DNA from: a virus
Virus record (IMG/VR): IMGVR_UViG_3300029787_000414
Coordinates: 1 to 20,942 of that record
Reading direction: 5' to 3' (one strand)
DNA: 20,942 nt
Shown here: one piece after another, positions 4,129 to 18,191 of the stretch
How the letters are laid out: each line of letters starts with the position of its first letter
Position numbering within the stretch: position 1 is the stretch's first letter
Program-made: the position numbers and the translations under genes
Notes under the pieces: model-generated
Told to the model about the DNA's origin: nothing
The model's database searches: none
What the model saw: the letters and a program-made list of their open reading frames with translations, nothing else

Positions 4129-5871
4129 ATGGCAGTTTATCGTAGTGACCAAGCACAATTAACAATAGCAGCTGAAGCCGCAGCAGGTGGTGACCCTGAA
4201 ATGAACTCAGGAACACGCCATACCGGTGGTTTTAATGCTTTAATAAATGATGGAAGTGGTATTCCTGCTGGAAGCACACAAATTACATATGATGGTGGCA
4301 GTAACACATTATATAAAGGTGATTTTATTAGAATAGGAAATACTGAAAGTGATAACTCTGCTGGTGATGCAGACGATAGCAACACAGTTAATGAATTTGA
4401 AATAAGAAGAGTAGTTCATTTTACAGGCACAAGTGCTGGAACTATATTTTTAGATAGACCGACTGCATTTTTTCATGCGGATAATGAAATAATAATTAAC
4501 ATAGAAAGCACAGCTAGCACTTTAGCTCAAAGTTATATTACAGAGGTTCCGGGTGTGTATGACTCTGTTACTTTACCTGAGTTTACACCTACGATTGAAC
4601 CAAGATACTTGTTAGGTACTTCTTCAGATAGAAACTTTACAAAGGCTTACTCAGGCACGCAATCTTTTAGTGGTTCATTGCCTGCATTCGTAGTGGTAGA
4701 TGCTACTCCGTTAAGATTCCCTATAGGTAAAATGACCACTGTGCCATCATCTGTCGCATCTGACACAATATTATTAAGTGCTGCGGCTAAAAAAGGTGAT
4801 ATATACATATCATGTGATGGAAGTGATGTAGGTAATTTAACTGATAATGATTATATTCAAATTACAGATGACTCTGGAGGCACGGATACTTCAGAGGTAA
4901 GACAAATTAAAGATGAAGTAGGAACATCAAACACATTTAGGTTGGATAGACCTTTACAGTTTGACCACCCAGACAATACCGTAATCAATGAAGTTTCTGG
5001 TGGTTCATCTCCTTCAGGGACATTTACTCACACAATTTCAGAAACATTTGATTTAGATACTTTATCTTGGAATGTACTATTTAGAGATAGTGCAGAAACT
5101 GCTGCAAATGATTTACAAAGACGATATGTAGGTGGTATTGTAGATAGTGCAACTCTTAGTGCTTCTGAGGGTGGAATGTTAATGATGAGTTATGATTCTG
5201 TACCATTTTTAGATATGCTTCATAACCAAGCTAATCAAGGAACAGTGGGTGATAACATATTTGCTGATGGTGGGGGTTCAGAGGATGCTGGTATGCCTAG
5301 ATATTCTATAATGAATTCTATAGGGACTTCTGATGTAAACTTCCCATCAACAGAGCCTTATTATTTCTCTCAAGGTAGTTTTACTTTATTTGGACAAGAG
5401 TTTGCTAGAGTAAGAAACATAGCAATATCAATTTCTAATTCTGTAGAACCTAGATACTATATAAGTCCGAGACACGGAAGACACAGAGGACCGAGTGAAT
5501 TTAGAGAAGGTAGAAGAGCTTACTCTTTATCATGCACTGTAGCGTTACCAGATACTGTCGCTAGCACCGCAACTACTGTAAATAGTGCTAACGAAATATT
5601 TAAACAAGTATTACTAGAGGGTAACTATGGTGACGGTAATGGTTTATCGGGATTTGCGATAACATTAACTTTTACTAGAGGAACTAATGATACAATAACT
5701 ATAACGATACCAAATGATGGTACAGCAGCTACAGGATTAAATGAAGCAGGAGCATTCATTCTTTCTGCTCCGTATAACATTACGGGAGACCCAATAATCC
5801 AAGCTGATTTAGACATATTGTTTAGAAATATGAAAATAGAAATAGTAGATACAAAACCAGTTTATATGTAA
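4129..5871 (+). CDS. Putative major tail tube protein with duplicated inserted beta domain
   Basis: The ATG at 4129 follows AAGGAG with an eight-base spacer. At 580 residues it is long for a tail tube subunit. Two segments, about residues 45-124 and 211-288, share a layout: a (D/N)(F/Y)I(R/Q)I strand, an EIRR or EVRQ strand, then LDRPxxFxHxDN at 108-119 and 272-283. These look like duplicated add-on domains. Residues 300-580 would hold most of the tube core, with strands such as SFTLFGQEFARVRNIAISIS and SGFAITLTFTRG. The gene has its own predicted promoter and directly precedes the frameshifted chaperone gene, where the major tail protein usually lies. The role rests on gene order and beta-rich composition. 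A head decoration protein is less likely. Confidence 0.6.
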   Translation: MAVYRSDQAQLTIAAEAAAGGDPEMNSGTRHTGGFNALINDGSGIPAGSTQITYDGGSNTLYKGDFIRIGNTESDNSAGDADDSNTVNEFEIRRVVHFTGTSAGTIFLDRPTAFFHADNEIIINIESTASTLAQSYITEVPGVYDSVTLPEFTPTIEPRYLLGTSSDRNFTKAYSGTQSFSGSLPAFVVVDATPLRFPIGKMTTVPSSVASDTILLSAAAKKGDIYISCDGSDVGNLTDNDYIQITDDSGGTDTSEVRQIKDEVGTSNTFRLDRPLQFDHPDNTVINEVSGGSSPSGTFTHTISETFDLDTLSWNVLFRDSAETAANDLQRRYVGGIVDSATLSASEGGMLMMSYDSVPFLDMLHNQANQGTVGDNIFADGGGSEDAGMPRYSIMNSIGTSDVNFPSTEPYYFSQGSFTLFGQEFARVRNIAISISNSVEPRYYISPRHGRHRGPSEFREGRRAYSLSCTVALPDTVASTATTVNSANEIFKQVLLEGNYGDGNGLSGFAITLTFTRGTNDTITITIPNDGTAATGLNEAGAFILSAPYNITGDPIIQADLDILFRNMKIEIVDTKPVYM

Positions 5872-11946: not shown

Positions 11947-12326
11947 TGAAAGCCAAAAACAAGATAGTAAGGTTACGCACTAAGTATCCTTTAATGTCTT
12001 CAGCTGAAATTAGTAGACAAGTAGGCGTTAGTCGTGTCTATGTTCACAATATTTTAAAAAAAAATGACCTACAAACTAAAGTCCCAAAACCTCAAAAGGT
12101 GGTATACTGTAAGGAGTGTGGTGATATAACTACTGATAAAGGTAGAATACACAAGGGAGAGTGCACATTCAAGTCAAGATTTATGAAATTGACATGTTCT
12201 TGGTGTAAAGTGCCCTTTTATAGAAGAAAAACCGTAGTAAAAGCAAGGATTAAAAGTAAATTAAAGAATATTTACTGCACATATGACTGTTATGCCGAAT
12301 ATAGACGATACAATGCGAATAAATGA
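11946..12326 (+). CDS. Helix-turn-helix protein with two zinc-binding cysteine clusters (putative regulator)
   Basis: The 126-residue basic protein overlaps the previous stop by one base. Residues 17-39 (MSSAEISRQVGVSRVYVHNI) form a clear helix-turn-helix with the usual SxAEIxxxxGVSxxxV spacing. Two probable zinc sites follow: C55, C58, H69 and C73, then C84, C87, C111 and C115. The DNA-binding domain and zinc sites suggest a transcription regulator or DNA-targeting factor. The gene overlaps the sigma factor gene by up to 44 bases, so the two are probably translated together. A run of nine A at 12056-12064 separates the helix-turn-helix from the zinc part and could be slippery. No HNH catalytic histidines are visible, so I do not call it a homing nuclease. 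Confidence 0.7.
   Translation: MKAKNKIVRLRTKYPLMSSAEISRQVGVSRVYVHNILKKNDLQTKVPKPQKVVYCKECGDITTDKGRIHKGECTFKSRFMKLTCSWCKVPFYRRKTVVKARIKSKLKNIYCTYDCYAEYRRYNANK
12056..12067 (+). other. A9 run with immediate -1 stop inside the regulator gene (possible frameshift or slippage site)
   Basis: The zero-frame codons are TTA AAA AAA AAT GAC, so A AAA AAA (12056-12062) is in slippery register. A -1 shift would add one Lys and end at TGA 12065-12067. The product would be a 40-residue protein holding only the helix-turn-helix. I see no strong downstream stem, so this is only a candidate site. Confidence 0.3.
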
Positions 12327-12819
12327 CGACCTGATTGAGAAATGGGAGCCAAAAATCTACAAAATGTTGCAAAATGCTTACATTGAGGGCTGGGAAAAGG
12401 AAGATTTAGTTCAAGAGTTAAGATTAACGATTATTAGAGCCGCAAAAAAGTATGATTCTAACCGAAATGCATCTTTTCACACTTATTTACACACTGCGAT
12501 GGTAAATACTCTTAGAACTCTGCATACTAAGTCTACTAAAAAGGTAGACACTGTTAGTATGGATAGAAATAACTCATCTTCAAATCTAGATGGGGATGAA
12601 TTTACATTGAAAGATAAATTACCCAGCACTGACAATTCAATTGATGAATTACGGTTGGACCATTTTTTAAATTCTTTAGGCTTAGAAAATAACGAAAAAG
12701 AATTCTTGACAATGAAGTATAAAAATTATACTATGGAACGTATTCAAGATAACTTGACTAATACTTCTATATATAAAGTCAAGAAATCGTTAAGAAATAA
12801 GTACAAAGAAGGAGAATAA
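12283..12819 (+). CDS. Phage-encoded sigma-70 family RNA polymerase sigma factor
   Basis: The product has up to 178 residues. Residues 36-82 match sigma region 2 (EKEDLVQELRLTIIRAAKKY, then DSNRNASFHTYLHTAMVNTL), the part that binds RNA polymerase and the -10 element. Residues 121-174 resemble a region 4 helix-turn-helix (NEKEFLTMKYKNYTMERIQD). A charged Asn/Ser-rich linker joins them and region 3 is missing, as in small alternative sigma factors. It should redirect host polymerase to phage promoters. The start is uncertain: ATG 12283, 12292 and 12313 are in frame, all inside the previous gene and without a good SD, which suggests coupling. ATG 12313 gives the shortest overlap (14 bases). It could read the repeated boxes at 1780 and 4101. 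Confidence 0.75.
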   Translation: MTVMPNIDDTMRINDDLIEKWEPKIYKMLQNAYIEGWEKEDLVQELRLTIIRAAKKYDSNRNASFHTYLHTAMVNTLRTLHTKSTKKVDTVSMDRNNSSSNLDGDEFTLKDKLPSTDNSIDELRLDHFLNSLGLENNEKEFLTMKYKNYTMERIQDNLTNTSIYKVKKSLRNKYKEGE

Positions 12820-14070
12820 TTGGAAAATTATAATTTTATAGAGTCGGGACTTATATTTGGACTATGTGATTCACAGAACTTTAAATCTTTTACACATCCA
12901 ATAAAAGATTTTGCTCAACACGGGGATACATATAAATTTATTCAAGAATATTTAGATGAGTATTCAGAGTCACCTAGTAATCAAATACTGATAGAAAAGT
13001 TTCCGCATCTTTCTACAGATGCACAAGACATGAACTTTCAGTATGCTCTTGCTGAGTTTAAAAAACAAGTGATGTTTAGGAATATAATTAGTGCATTCTC
13101 TAACAACAAACCAACTCTAGAGCAGAATCCTAAAAAAGCATTGTCTTTAATTATGGAGGGTTTACACGATGTAGAAATTTTACACGATTCTGATGTAAGT
13201 CAATATGATTGTGGGGAACTTGATAGATTTGAAGAATGGAAAGATAAAAATAGTAAAAGAGAACTAGGAGATGGTATGATTGGCATACCTACCCCTTTTG
13301 ATGTTATCAACTCTACAGGTATGGGATGGCAACCCGGTGATTTAATTACAGCTTATGCGAGACCAACTGTAGGTAAAACATGGTTATGTTGTAAGATAGC
13401 AGCTATAGCAGTAGAAAAAGGTTTTAAAACATTACTAGTATCTACTGAAATGACTAAATCCTCTATCAATTTAAGGATGGATGTTATATTAGGACACATG
13501 AGGGGGTTTAAGTTATCACACTCTGCCATACGAAATGGTAATGAGATAGATGAAAATGAATATAAGAAGTTTTTGACTAATAGTGACTCAAGAAATCTAC
13601 TGATATGTGACCACATTAGTGGAGAAGATAGTATATCTTTACCTAGTATCACAAACTTAGTTAGAAAGTATTCACCTGATTTACTAGTTATAGATGGAGT
13701 TTACTTAGTATCTACTCAAGATGCCAAGAGAGCCGCTTGGGAGCAATCTCATTCGCTGTTCTATGGATTAAAAAATTTAGCATTATCAACTAATACAGCA
13801 GTTATGGCTTCAACACAGGCTACACGAGATGCATCTGATATGTATGTCCCACCTGCCCCTAATCAAGTGGCATTTGGAGACGCATTGATAAGAGCTTCAG
13901 ACGTAGCAGTGTCAATGTCCATGATGAAAGATGACCTTGATATGGTAATACAAGATAAAAGACAAATACAGTTTCAAAAGTATAGAGATGGAGATTTACC
14001 ATTCTCTGACTTTGAATTTATATGGAGGGTAAACAATGGACACATTGAGCAAACTAATGCGACAATATAA
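12820..14070 (+). CDS. DnaB-type replicative DNA helicase
   Basis: The 416-residue protein starts at TTG 12820, directly after the sigma factor stop, with AAGGAG at 12809-12814. The N-terminal 130 residues are helical, as in the DnaB primase-interacting domain. The RecA-like core has Walker A ARPTVGKT (180-187), catalytic Glu210 in LLVSTEM, Walker B LLVID (288-292) and a sensor Gln333 in ASTQ. DnaB-family helicases move 5' to 3' on the lagging strand as hexamers. The primase gene lies two genes downstream. The product is shorter than bacterial DnaB (about 470), mainly in its N-terminal domain. The TTG start is chosen for the SD and because no ATG lies nearby in frame. Confidence 0.9.
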   Translation: MENYNFIESGLIFGLCDSQNFKSFTHPIKDFAQHGDTYKFIQEYLDEYSESPSNQILIEKFPHLSTDAQDMNFQYALAEFKKQVMFRNIISAFSNNKPTLEQNPKKALSLIMEGLHDVEILHDSDVSQYDCGELDRFEEWKDKNSKRELGDGMIGIPTPFDVINSTGMGWQPGDLITAYARPTVGKTWLCCKIAAIAVEKGFKTLLVSTEMTKSSINLRMDVILGHMRGFKLSHSAIRNGNEIDENEYKKFLTNSDSRNLLICDHISGEDSISLPSITNLVRKYSPDLLVIDGVYLVSTQDAKRAAWEQSHSLFYGLKNLALSTNTAVMASTQATRDASDMYVPPAPNQVAFGDALIRASDVAVSMSMMKDDLDMVIQDKRQIQFQKYRDGDLPFSDFEFIWRVNNGHIEQTNATI

Positions 14071-14320
14071 AAATAGCACGTTTTTAAATTTACAATGTGC
14101 AAAATGTAGCATTAATGGTAAATACGATATAGGATTGACAGTTAAAATACCACTGTTAAAATCAGATGGCTCTCCAAGAGTTAAAATATTAGGAATAATA
14201 AAAGACGACCCCTCATGTATTAAATGTGGAACAACATTCCCAGAGGGATATAGGCAGGTAAAAGGTGACCTTGTATACAGAATACAACCAAACAGGACAA
14301 GATTTGATAGATTGGACTAA
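14036..14320 (+). CDS. Small zinc-ribbon protein between helicase and primase
   Basis: The 94-residue product starts at ATG 14036, inside the helicase end (35-base overlap), with a strong SD GGAGGG upstream. Two CxxC knuckles, C21/C24 (CAKC) and C61/C64 (CIKC), are 36 residues apart and typical of a zinc ribbon. The chain is basic and has no other domain. Lying between helicase and primase, it may be a replisome accessory that binds single-stranded DNA or bridges the two enzymes. That role is inferred from context. Confidence 0.65.
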   Translation: MDTLSKLMRQYKNSTFLNLQCAKCSINGKYDIGLTVKIPLLKSDGSPRVKILGIIKDDPSCIKCGTTFPEGYRQVKGDLVYRIQPNRTRFDRLD

Positions 14321-15176
14321 CATCTTACAAAAGATTGATGTTGATGTACCACTAGGTGAGGAACAGTTCAACATAGAGTGTCCTTTCCATAAAGATGATA
14401 AACCATCTTTATCAATAAATACTAAGAAAGGGGTATGGATATGCTTTGCAGGTTGTGGTCAGGGTAGTCTAAAAAGTTTTATTAGGAAGCATACGGGATG
14501 GAGTGCTCGTGAAATATTAAACTTTTTAGCAGAGAACTCAGATGGTTACGACCCTGCAAAAATGTTTGAATTGAATACTCCTGCTCCTCTTGGACTACCA
14601 GCACTTGAAGAAAAAGTATTCCCTTATAAACAATATGTAGTGCCTAAATGGATATTTGATAGAGGGTTTGATAAGTTTACATTAAATAGATGGGGGTGTG
14701 GTATAACACCTAGTAATGGATTAGTAATCCCTGCTCACGATAAAGATGCAAAGTTAGTTGGTTGGATAATTAGGAGAGAATTTGGGATACCAAAATATGT
14801 TTATGCTAAAGGCTTCAAGAAATCACACATATTATTTGGACAACCTTTGGTTGACACATCTAATGCAGTATGTATAACTGAAGGTGCGTTAGATGCTATG
14901 TGGTTGAATCAACTTGGGTATCAAGCAGTTGCTTTACTAGGCATGCAGATGTCTAAGGTTCAAGAGGATTTGATAGTAGGATTACCATCAAAAGAAATAA
15001 TATTGTGTTTAGACAACGACAATGCAGGTAAAAAAGGTAGAGATTATATATTGACAAGATTAAGAGGTCGTGTTAATATATCCTATCTAAAACTTCCCAA
15101 TCAATATAAAGATGTGCAGGAAGTAAAAAAGTATGATATACTAAAAGAAACGATAAATAACCGGCGTAGCTGGTAA
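14265..15176 (+). CDS. DnaG/T7-type DNA primase (zinc finger plus TOPRIM)
   Basis: This primase makes RNA primers for lagging-strand synthesis. Residues 39-64 hold a CHC2-type zinc finger (C39, H42, C60, C64 in ECPFHKDDKPSLSI and WICFAGCGQGS) for template recognition. The TOPRIM core has the catalytic Glu in ITEGALDAM (Glu206) and the acidic pair in LCLDNDNAGKKG (Asp250, Asp252). At about 303 residues it lacks a helicase domain, consistent with the separate helicase gene. GTG 14265 overlaps the previous gene by 56 bases and has only a weak AGG. TTG 14304 has AGGA with a six-base spacer, overlaps by 17 bases and gives 290 residues. I think 14304 is as likely, and both keep the zinc finger. Confidence 0.88.
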   Translation: MTLYTEYNQTGQDLIDWTNILQKIDVDVPLGEEQFNIECPFHKDDKPSLSINTKKGVWICFAGCGQGSLKSFIRKHTGWSAREILNFLAENSDGYDPAKMFELNTPAPLGLPALEEKVFPYKQYVVPKWIFDRGFDKFTLNRWGCGITPSNGLVIPAHDKDAKLVGWIIRREFGIPKYVYAKGFKKSHILFGQPLVDTSNAVCITEGALDAMWLNQLGYQAVALLGMQMSKVQEDLIVGLPSKEIILCLDNDNAGKKGRDYILTRLRGRVNISYLKLPNQYKDVQEVKKYDILKETINNRRSW

Positions 15177-15186
15177 AGGAGAAAAA

Positions 15187-15945
15187 ATGGCAGGAATAGC
15201 CGATATACAAACTAGATATGAGAGTTATCAAAAGAATAGAAACTCTCAATCAAACAACAGTTTAGGTAGGGAACTATTTTTAAAACAAGATGGTGACCAA
15301 GCCTTTATAAAATCAATAGCAACAGGGAGTCCTGATGACCCTTATCTAGCAGAGATTAGATTGCATACATTCCGTGAAGATGGTAGATGGCAATCTGTTC
15401 TACATACAGAAGATGGTCCAGCAGATGAAGTCCCTGAAGGAAGTGTGCCTTCTAGAAAGTTTTCTTTATGGGCGTATGTATCAGAAGTAGTACATCCAGA
15501 AAAACCTCAAACAGGTTTGGCAGGGGATTTGAACTGGGAAGAAAAAGTAATGCCTTCAGGTAAAACTATGTTCATCGAACCTATCAACGACTTCCGAATC
15601 ATTACATTAAGTTTTGGTAGAGGCAGATACTTATGGAACGAACTTGTTGACATATACAATGATTGGCAAGGGCTTGATAAAGGTGTGCTTAGAATTAAAA
15701 GAAATGGTTTAAGCACTGATACTACTTATACTATAACCGCTGCTTCAGATAAGACTATTGAGATACCAGAGGATAGACTCAAAGAGACTACTGAATTAAC
15801 AGCTCTTGATGAATACTTTGCTGATAGGTATGGTAAAAAGTTCGTACCAGCATCACAAAGCACTAACTCAAATACAAATATCGTACCTAAAGATGCAGTG
15901 TCTACATCTGATTCAACATCAGATGAAGTACAGATGCCCTTTTAG
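15187..15945 (+). CDS. Single-stranded DNA-binding protein
   Basis: The 252-residue protein starts at ATG 15187 with AAGGAG upstream (spacer seven). The body has alternating strands (FSLWAYVSEVV, FRIITLSFGRGRYLWNELVD) compatible with an OB fold. A low-complexity acidic linker leads to the tip TSDEVQMPF. An acidic C-terminus ending in Pro-Phe is the classic partner-recruiting tail of SSB proteins, used to contact polymerase and primase. Its place between primase and polymerase agrees. The fold was not confirmed by a search, but tail and context are strong. The protein is likely abundant and coats lagging-strand template. Confidence 0.75.
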   Translation: MAGIADIQTRYESYQKNRNSQSNNSLGRELFLKQDGDQAFIKSIATGSPDDPYLAEIRLHTFREDGRWQSVLHTEDGPADEVPEGSVPSRKFSLWAYVSEVVHPEKPQTGLAGDLNWEEKVMPSGKTMFIEPINDFRIITLSFGRGRYLWNELVDIYNDWQGLDKGVLRIKRNGLSTDTTYTITAASDKTIEIPEDRLKETTELTALDEYFADRYGKKFVPASQSTNSNTNIVPKDAVSTSDSTSDEVQMPF

Positions 15946-15961
15946 GAACCTCCTCTCAATT

Positions 15962-15993
15962 TCCTCCCTAAGTTAAACTCATCTTAGGGAGGA
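15962..15993 (+). promoter_or_regulatory. RNA hairpin burying the SD of the DNA polymerase gene
   Basis: An 11-pair perfect inverted repeat, TCCTCCCTAAG (15962-15972) with CTTAGGGAGGA (15983-15993), encloses a 10-base loop. The only SD for the polymerase ATG at 16003 is AGGGAGG (15986-15992), entirely within the 3' arm. When folded, the SD would be inaccessible. No T-run follows on either strand, so a terminator is unlikely. A second pyrimidine tract CCTCCT lies at 15949-15954. The layout suggests translational repression of polymerase synthesis. Confidence 0.75.
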
Positions 15994-16002
15994 TGAATAA
16001 TT

Positions 16003-18009
16003 ATGGACTCATTAATTGTAAACACAGATAATTTTAAAGATACACTTAGTTCACTCAAAGATAACTATGGTGATGTAAATACTTGGATAATAGACGTAGA
16101 GACTAATGGTTTAGATGTTTACAATCCAGATATTAAATTATGTGGTATAGGACTTACCCCTGTAACAAATCATAACGCACAAGATGTCGCCCCTATATAT
16201 TATTTTCCGGTAAGACACGATGGAGATACAAATTTAGAAATATCGGATGTAAATAAATTGATACAGTTTCTAAATGATACATGTCACATAGTTATAGGGT
16301 ACAACATCAAGTTTGATGCTAAGTTTTTAGAAAAGCAAGGTATGAATATATCTGATATGCAAATGATTGATGTGTTAGTCATGGTTAGAATGACTGAGGC
16401 TACTACAGTCAACAAGTTAAGTCTACTAGATATAACTATCAAAGATTATGGAGAAAATGCAGGTCAGTATGATTTAAATACAGATAAAATTTTAAAGTCT
16501 AATCGCACTGATGGGGTAAGATGGAAAGATAATTATTCATTAGCACCTATTAATACATTAGGTCCATACTGTATAGAAGATGTCAACTGCACTAAAAGAT
16601 TATATGTTGATAGATTGGCTAAGATAAAACAAGCAGGTATGACTGATTTATTAAAACTACAATGTAAATTAAGTAAGGCTTTATATGATATGGAAAGCAG
16701 AGGGGTTGCAATAGATAATAAATATGCCCAAACTGCTAATAAAAGAATTCTTACAAGATTAAAGAAGTTAGAGCAGCGTATATACGATTTAGCCAAAAGT
16801 GAATTAGGATTTGATAAAATAGACTTTAAGTTTAATATTAGTAGCCCGTCTCAGATAGGTGAGATATTTAATAAAATGAATGTACACTCTCCTGTTCAGA
16901 CTACTACGGGAGCTGAAGCATGGAATGAGGCAGTGCTAGTTCAAGTTAATCACCCACTTGCAGGGTTGATAAGACAGTACAGAACACTTAATAAATTTAA
17001 CTCTACTTATATAGAGCCTTATTTAGAGATGCCTGTGTTACATACAGGATTTAAAAACTGGGGCACTGTTACAGGTAGACTATCATCTAGCAATCCTAAT
17101 TTGCAGAACATACCTAGAGACACTATATATATTGCAGATAGAGAGCTTGACGAAGAACAACGCGATGAAGTTAAGGGTAGGATATCTGCTTTAATATCTA
17201 GTAAAGGTGGGGACTCTACTGTGACTCTTACTGATGATGTAGTTGATACATGGAGTTTTTTAGGTGGTGATAAGTTTGATGCCAAAGATAAAACACAGAT
17301 TTCTATTCGACATTTATTTGTGCCTCGTAAGGATTACACTCTTATGGCATATGATTATTCACAGATGGAAGTTAGAGTCTTTATGTATTATGTAGATAAT
17401 GCTGAGATGAATGAATTAATGAAACAAGATGATGTGGATTTTCACGGTGAAGCAGCTAAGATAGCTTTTCACATGGATGAGGACAACCCTGAATTTAAGT
17501 TTTATAGACAGTTAGCAAAGTCCATTACATTCGGAGTTATATATGGTATAGGCAAAGATAAACTAGCCATGCAATTAAATACTAGTCCTATTGAAGCGTT
17601 TAGATACAAGCAAACTTATCTAGAGAATATGAAGGGGTCAAAAGAGTTTTTTAATTCTGTTGTTAAGACAATAGAAACTAAAGGCTGGGTTAGGAATAAG
17701 TATGGAAGAATATACAAAGTTCCTAAAGATTATGCATATAGAGGTGTAAATTACTTGATTCAGGGGACAAGTGCTGATATAATGAGTGAAAGAATAGTAG
17801 AAATACACAATTATCTAAGAGATAAGAAAAGTAATTTGTTACTTCAAGTGCATGATGAGGTTATATGTGAGATACATAAGGATGAGGTGGATGAAGTTGC
17901 ACCAATGATTAAACAATTAATGAAAGAAAACACATTAAATATACCACTTGGTGTAGATATGGAAATATGTAAACCATCGTGGGCAGTTAAGAAGGAATAC
18001 ACAGTATGA
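16003..18009 (+). CDS. polA: Family A DNA polymerase with 3'-5' exonuclease and a palm insertion
   Basis: The 668-residue replicative polymerase lacks a 5' nuclease domain. The proofreading motifs are Exo I (Asp31, Glu33 in IIDVETNGLD), Exo II (Asp105 in GYNIKFDAK) and Exo III (Tyr189, Asp193 in YCIEDVN). Polymerase motifs are TGRLSSSNPNLQNIPR (357-372), motif A DYSQMEVR (Asp451), motif B RQLAKSITFGVIYG (Lys506, Phe510, Tyr514) and motif C QVHDEV (Asp618). Phe510 corresponds to E. coli Phe762, a residue tied in viral ecology to virulent phages. About 55 extra residues (roughly 374-432) separate NLQNIPR from IRHLFVP, where Pol I has about ten. The SD is sequestered in the preceding hairpin. 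The stop overlaps the bS21 start as ATGA. Confidence 0.95.
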   Translation: MDSLIVNTDNFKDTLSSLKDNYGDVNTWIIDVETNGLDVYNPDIKLCGIGLTPVTNHNAQDVAPIYYFPVRHDGDTNLEISDVNKLIQFLNDTCHIVIGYNIKFDAKFLEKQGMNISDMQMIDVLVMVRMTEATTVNKLSLLDITIKDYGENAGQYDLNTDKILKSNRTDGVRWKDNYSLAPINTLGPYCIEDVNCTKRLYVDRLAKIKQAGMTDLLKLQCKLSKALYDMESRGVAIDNKYAQTANKRILTRLKKLEQRIYDLAKSELGFDKIDFKFNISSPSQIGEIFNKMNVHSPVQTTTGAEAWNEAVLVQVNHPLAGLIRQYRTLNKFNSTYIEPYLEMPVLHTGFKNWGTVTGRLSSSNPNLQNIPRDTIYIADRELDEEQRDEVKGRISALISSKGGDSTVTLTDDVVDTWSFLGGDKFDAKDKTQISIRHLFVPRKDYTLMAYDYSQMEVRVFMYYVDNAEMNELMKQDDVDFHGEAAKIAFHMDEDNPEFKFYRQLAKSITFGVIYGIGKDKLAMQLNTSPIEAFRYKQTYLENMKGSKEFFNSVVKTIETKGWVRNKYGRIYKVPKDYAYRGVNYLIQGTSADIMSERIVEIHNYLRDKKSNLLLQVHDEVICEIHKDEVDEVAPMIKQLMKENTLNIPLGVDMEICKPSWAVKKEYTV

Positions 18010-18191
18010 GAATAGTAGCAAACAAAAATGAACCTTTTGAAAAATTAATTCGTAGGTTTAAAAAAGCTGTTGAAAAGAATGATATAATTAAAACATACAG
18101 AGAAAAGTCAGAGTTTACACCTAAAAGTGTTGCTAAACAACAGAAGAAAAAAGATAAGTTAAGGAAAAGTAGAGAAAATGGCAGAGGCTAA
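18006..18191 (+). CDS. rpsU: Phage-encoded ribosomal protein bS21
   Basis: The 61-residue, strongly basic protein matches bS21: NEPFEKLIRRFKKAVEKNDI aligns with the NEPFxxALRRFKRxCEKAG core, followed by a Lys/Arg-rich helix (SVAKQQKKKDKLRKSRENG). Cellular bS21 has about 70 residues and binds the 30S platform beside the anti-SD helix, where it aids initiation. Phage copies are known, including in pelagiphages, and probably join host ribosomes to bias translation. The ATG at 18006 overlaps the polymerase stop (ATGA) and has AAGGA at 17992-17996 with a nine-base spacer, so expression is probably coupled to the polymerase. The protein is complete except for a shorter C-terminal tail. Confidence 0.88.
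   Translation: MRIVANKNEPFEKLIRRFKKAVEKNDIIKTYREKSEFTPKSVAKQQKKKDKLRKSRENGRG

Follow-up and report, generated by a model that had tools for sequence, protein, structure and literature searches.

A covariation-supported RNA hairpin between the ssb and family A DNA polymerase genes of uncultured marine phages

How is translation started on a phage DNA polymerase gene if its only SD sequence lies in the arm of a perfect hairpin, and what might such a hairpin do? This question is raised by the IMG/VR virus record IMGVR_UViG_3300029787_000414, which belongs to a family of marine, uncultured phages and was analyzed over its positions 1–20,942 (in the following called the window). An earlier note on this DNA had described the hairpin and suggested that the polymerase, or its neighbor SSB, may be controlled by an RNA operator convergent with that of T4 gp43. 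The features of interest are, from upstream to downstream:

15187..15945, plus strand: ssb, 252 aa, encoding a likely gp32-like single-strand DNA-binding protein
15946..16002, plus strand: ssb-pol intergenic leader, here 57 nt
15947-15960, plus strand: invariant unpaired stretch AACCTCCTCTCAAT, 14 nt, between the ssb stop codon and the stem
15962-15972, plus strand: 5′ arm TCCTCCCTAAG, with CCTCC at 15963
15973-15982, plus strand: loop TTAAACTCAT, 10 nt
15983-15993, plus strand: 3′ arm CTTAGGGAGGA, with the SD-like AGGGAGG at 15986-15992
15994..16002, plus strand: spacer from the stem base to the ATG, 9 nt, no T-run
16003..18009, plus strand: pol, DNA polymerase of family A, 668 aa, start ATG at 16003
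18006..18191, plus strand: gene for ribosomal protein bS21, 61 aa (PF01165, E 1.5e-9)

The ssb-pol junction in its gene cluster

The leader lies in a cluster of sigma-factor, helicase, primase, SSB, polymerase and bS21 genes (12283-18191). The set of sigma factor, primase and bS21 recalls the bacterial rpsU-dnaG-rpoD operon. The polymerase belongs to family A, as the earlier note had read it (PF00476, E 5e-78; PHROG 17, E 2e-111). Its stop codon overlaps the start of the bS21 gene (ATGA), and bS21 is therefore probably translationally coupled to pol. Close relatives also have bS21 located 3′ of pol, either directly or with an inserted ORF in between. Such an ORF of ~185 aa was found in L033 and L037, and a similar one in L213 from position 5148 onward. 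The start of the inserted ORF resembles that of bS21, for example KKGETFEKMLRRF in L213, where PF01165 matches the first residues. Unrelated, possibly nuclease-like sequence follows this start, and an intact bS21 gene lies downstream. Possibly, the inserted ORF is a mobile gene carrying a copy of the 5′ end of the gene it targets.

The gene upstream of pol is preceded by a strong and free SD (AAAGGAG, 5 nt before the ATG). Its product in the window gave no direct match in Pfam, PHROG or PDB. Among 31 aligned homologs, 28 matched PHROG 1607, “single strand DNA binding protein” (best E 3e-6), and an AlphaFold model built from the homologs (mean pLDDT 72, disordered ends) was closest in the PDB to the RB69 and T4 gp32 cores (E 1.4e-4 to 8e-4). 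These matches and the predicted fold make “SSB” a fair name, in line with the earlier assignment of the neighbor of pol, and the modeled fold points to a likely gp32-like type.

In the window, the hairpin described in the earlier note was found exactly as drawn, with a perfect stem of 11 bp, a loop of 10 nt and no T-run. It is the sole perfect inverted repeat in the window with at least 11 bp and a loop of 3–12 nt, with a mean of 0.1 such repeats in first-order Markov copies. The surrounding 101-nt RNA stretch is predicted to fold at −23.4 kcal/mol (z −2.15), a value reached by 4 of 200 shuffles. AGGGAGG ends 10 nt before the ATG at 16003 and is indeed the only SD-like site for this start codon; the other genes of the window mostly have AAGGAG-type SDs 4–8 nt from their starts. 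The CCTCC of the 5′ arm and a second CCTCCT upstream (15949-15954) are both present. Keeping positions −18 to +3 unpaired at the pol start has a predicted cost of 19.2 kcal/mol, compared with 1.0–8.2 kcal/mol at 24 other candidate ORF starts in the window; 0.25% of 400 random positions reach the cost at pol. As a side observation, the ACTCAT of the loop (15977-15982) is repeated just past the beginning of pol (16003-16012, ATGGACTCAT) in the window and its nearest relatives. This repeat is absent from L009 and is probably due to chance.

Conservation of the hairpin and of the single strand before it

Relatives were collected by a scan of IMG/VR, which yielded 54 loci with pol 59–99% identical to that of the window; more distant loci were added afterwards. 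Isolated phages yielded no polymerase closer than ~28% identity and no ssb match, and a scan of bacterial genomes for possible hosts returned remote polymerases only.

A stem 7–17 nt before the pol ATG is present in all of the ~50 relatives that share the ssb-pol order and whose junction is sequenced. The ssb-pol gap in the clade of the window measures 57–80 nt, and every member with a sequenced junction has the hairpin in it. L029, at first taken for an exception without hairpin, has its junction interrupted by a run of N, a scaffold artifact, and the hairpin lies beside it. In each of the 27 distinct junctions measured, the stem begins 16–26 nt past the ssb stop codon and ends 7–17 nt before the pol ATG.

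The earlier note had suggested searching related phages for paired changes that keep the stem, and this comparison was positive, with many compensatory and G-U changes in the mRNA sense. In 17 distinct junctions from the other half of the clade (in the following called B-type), 95.9% of the alignment cells pair, and double-sided changes occur in 10 of 13 pairs. Their covariation score of 0.696 compares with 0.348 for shuffles and at most 0.178 for slid structures. The eight near relatives show double changes in 3 of 11 pairs. RNAalifold recovered the same stems unaided. Cells that deviate from Watson–Crick pairing are mainly G-U, and A-C occurs only twice; this preference of G-U over A-C indicates selection on a plus-strand mRNA structure, not on a minus-strand RNA or a DNA cruciform. 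A covariance model found at most one site per genome, at the ssb-pol junction only, and detected the near group weakly. Rfam gave no match above the gathering score in the window or in 12 relatives, and chance-level matches only at a relaxed E-value; our literature search returned no description of this leader. Judged by this sequence comparison, the leader is a real, previously unlisted and covariation-supported cis-acting RNA that precedes the family A polymerase gene of a phage.

A second conserved part precedes the stem. No near relative differs from the window in the unpaired stretch AACCTCCTCTCAAT (100% identity), not even L013 and L014, in which the four-fold degenerate sites of pol are only 48% and 45% identical to those of the window; across the farther near relatives this value is 45–55%. 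The stretch is thus far better conserved than the four-fold sites of pol. In B-type junctions it reads ACCTCCATRA. Its core, ACCTCC, matches the 16S anti-SD in sequence and is kept in all lineages but one, represented by L104 and L105, which retain the stem without the stretch. On the plus strand, ACCTCC occurs once in the window, within AACCTCCTCTCAAT, and AACCTCC occurs once in the 43-kb relative G002, at the ssb-pol junction. An alternative fold in which ACCTCC would pair with the 3′ arm was rejected, since the stretch is invariant despite arm changes (GGAAGG in L009). The upstream CCTCCT, listed in the earlier note as a second tract besides the CCTCC of the 5′ arm, is therefore more than a spare anti-SD; it is the core of a 14-nt stretch whose sequence is invariant and does not track changes of the 3′ arm.

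The proposal that the hairpin hides the sole SD of pol also held in part. It applies to the window and its close relatives, but many members of the wider clade have no usable SD to hide. In the near group, the SD ends ~8–14 nt before the ATG, with only a weak AGGA in L009. In the other group, the sole GGAG or GGGG is part of the 3′ arm, at a distance of 12–18 nt or more from the ATG, and L069 has none. As the hairpin is kept in many members without a well-spaced SD, what is conserved is a hairpin at the site of initiation rather than a masked SD; SD masking is the form that it takes in the subgroup of the window. In the clade, the predicted cost of opening positions −20 to +10 is 10–23 kcal/mol at pol starts versus 7–11 kcal/mol at ssb starts. 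Because a block of 19 kcal/mol alone would nearly silence pol, some route of opening must exist.

Phages of the sister lineage (pol ~50% identical) mostly lack both gap and hairpin: ssb directly adjoins pol, or a deaminase-like gene that in turn adjoins pol. Control by the leader is thus dispensable in principle. Several other arrangements were seen. Loci L111-L114 have a well-conserved ssb-pol gap of 99–110 nt (107-nt gap) with a normal pol SD and no clear single hairpin; the gap of L113 had no Rfam match. Among the sister phages, an unrelated strong hairpin lies right after ssb in L121 (3465-3497) and L214 (2059-2133), with the pol SD free past the stem, and in L178 (3203-3247), there before another gene with its own SD. 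In L130, of the sister lineage as well, a terminator-like hairpin follows ssb. bS21 is absent from most sister-lineage records, several of which are fragments. In a nested lineage, L202, L205 and L213 carry bS21 in the same region with abutting ssb and pol and no hairpin. Together with L218 they represent a separate lineage that has bS21 downstream of pol and lacks the leader, which suggests a second acquisition of bS21 or a loss of the leader. Apparent gaps of 66 nt in L202, L205 and L213 and of 87 nt in L231 were discarded as wrong start calls, as pol directly follows the ssb stop codon.

Possible functions of the leader

We consider it about 60% probable, from the sequence comparisons, that this cis-acting RNA restrains the translation of pol. 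The ssb-pol gap would be co-transcribed in one message and fold in the mRNA as an autonomous hairpin. With its base 9 nt before the pol start, the hairpin would occupy the ribosome binding region and keep initiation at pol low, and the overlapping bS21 would likewise be held low through its coupling to pol. The less structured, SD-bearing ssb start would be read freely, and the leader would in this way set the ratio of SSB to polymerase. The sequence-specific part would be AACCTCCTCTCAAT, on which either a ribosome could land (standby site) or a putative trans-acting factor could bind that would keep the stem closed or open it. With the usual footprint, a ribosome ending on ssb would cover ACCTCC but not the stem base 16–26 nt downstream; translation of ssb alone should therefore not melt the stem. 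Against restraint of pol speak the many clade members in which an SD in the 3′ arm is badly spaced or, as in L069, missing, the predicted block that by thermodynamics alone would nearly silence the gene, and the sister phages that mostly do without any hairpin.

The main rival, unlikely but to be taken seriously, regards the hairpin as the 3′ end of the ssb message, where it would block 3′-to-5′ decay or serve as a processing site. It would raise ssb mRNA over the polymerase part, and the proximity to the pol start would follow from the compactness of the genomes. More SSB than polymerase is normally required, and unrelated hairpins recur right after ssb in the sister phages, in L130 with a terminator-like appearance; those of L121, L178 and L214 leave the next SD free and fit this explanation better than control of pol. 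In the clade of the window, however, the stem always lies in the initiation region with no free SD after it, and a stabilizer would not require an invariant single-stranded ACCTCC stretch. A special case of translational restraint of pol, rather improbable in our view, is an autogenous operator in the manner of T4, in which excess polymerase or gp32-like SSB would bind the stretch and the hairpin and repress pol. The bipartite anatomy of an invariant single strand and a covarying stem resembles a protein operator, and the product of the upstream gene has a predicted gp32 fold. The loop, however, varies across the clade (TTTGACTCA vs GATGTCCT), unlike the -UAAC- of the T4 and RB69 gp43 operators; the loop of the window has UAAA, which its closest relatives L004-L009 lack.

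Three further explanations appear improbable to different degrees. ACCTCC, being the anti-SD core, could mimic 16S rRNA and be read by the phage bS21 or by ribosomes carrying it, which would tie the translation of pol to bS21; bS21 contacts the 3′ tail of 16S rRNA and acts in initiation (PMC6375957, PMC9723584), and its gene follows pol in close relatives. Yet the two are decoupled in two lineages, as L104 and L105 have bS21 and the hairpin without ACCTCC, and L202, L205 and L213 have bS21 with neither gap nor hairpin, so that we dropped bS21 as the partner of the leader. The phages that combine bS21 and hairpin form one clade on a first tree, and their joint presence therefore counts once; the L202 lineage speaks against a functional link. 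The order of elements also differs, with the helix preceding the tail in 16S rRNA but following ACCTCC here. We consider this mimicry improbable, and give still less credit to an intrinsic transcription terminator or attenuator. A strong stem at a gene boundary would suit such an element, and the hairpin of L130, a phage of the sister lineage, resembles a true terminator, but at most two consecutive T follow the stem in the window and most members (four at maximum), and a terminator scan did not report the ssb-pol site. Least credible is a DNA element such as a replication origin, a protein site or a cruciform. It would match the location in a replication gene cluster, but G-U is tolerated and A-C almost never, and the arm sequences change freely while the pairing is kept.

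Relation to known translational control systems

The textbook example of a phage DNA polymerase acting as repressor of its own mRNA is T4 gp43. It binds a hairpin upstream of its own start together with the sequence of the ribosome binding site, and T4 gp32 also represses its own translation by binding RNA at the start region (PMC3014915). As in the gene 43 operators of T4 and RB69, the leader described here places an RNA hairpin upstream of a phage polymerase start, in or next to the ribosome binding region, and within a replication gene cluster that has a gp32-type SSB. The T4 gene 43 hairpin comprises 18 bases with a -UAAC- loop conserved between T4 and RB69 and lies ~40 bases upstream (PMC3014915), whereas here the stem has 10–16 bp, lies 7–17 nt upstream and is accompanied by an invariant single strand set apart from it. 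The loop varies between relatives (TTAAACTCAT, TTTGACTCA, GATGTCCT), and the polymerase is of family A, whereas gp43 is a model for alpha-type polymerases. As loop and type of polymerase both differ, the element is T4-like in position only. The parallel to gene 32 autoregulation is that the gene for a gp32-like SSB adjoins the RNA element; T4 gp32, however, acts on the leader of its own mRNA (a pseudoknot and an unstructured ribosome binding site), and the element here follows ssb and precedes pol.

That the leader represents a new family of phage translational operators, unrelated in sequence to that of T4, in which an invariant anti-SD-like single strand and a covarying hairpin are bound by a replication protein (gp32-like SSB or family A polymerase), is a possibility that we regard as rather doubtful. 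If true, a second phage lineage would have evolved replisome feedback on its own polymerase mRNA. With this covariation-supported leader of a family A polymerase gene, in a diverse group of phages that also encode a gp32-like SSB and a bS21, one can ask at a defined site whether RNA-level feedback of the replisome has more than a single origin. A further question is how ribosomes begin at a start codon that lacks a free SD and lies behind a closed leader.

Structured start sites elsewhere rely on a standby site upstream, for example in tisB, or on S1-dependent unfolding, as in rpsO (PMC7708055, PMC3858243). The pol leader shares with them a closed ribosome binding site and single-stranded RNA upstream on which a ribosome could wait, but differs in that the single strand is invariant and lies just past a stop codon inside an operon. 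In Flavobacterium, rpsU, which encodes bS21 and has an extended SD in its mRNA, is autoregulated by ribosomes lacking bS21 (PMC9976891). There as here, bS21, an anti-SD sequence and SD strength might be seen in one circuit; in the phages, by contrast, a long distance separates the anti-SD-like stretch of the mRNA from the bS21 gene, and bS21 is also found where the stretch is missing.
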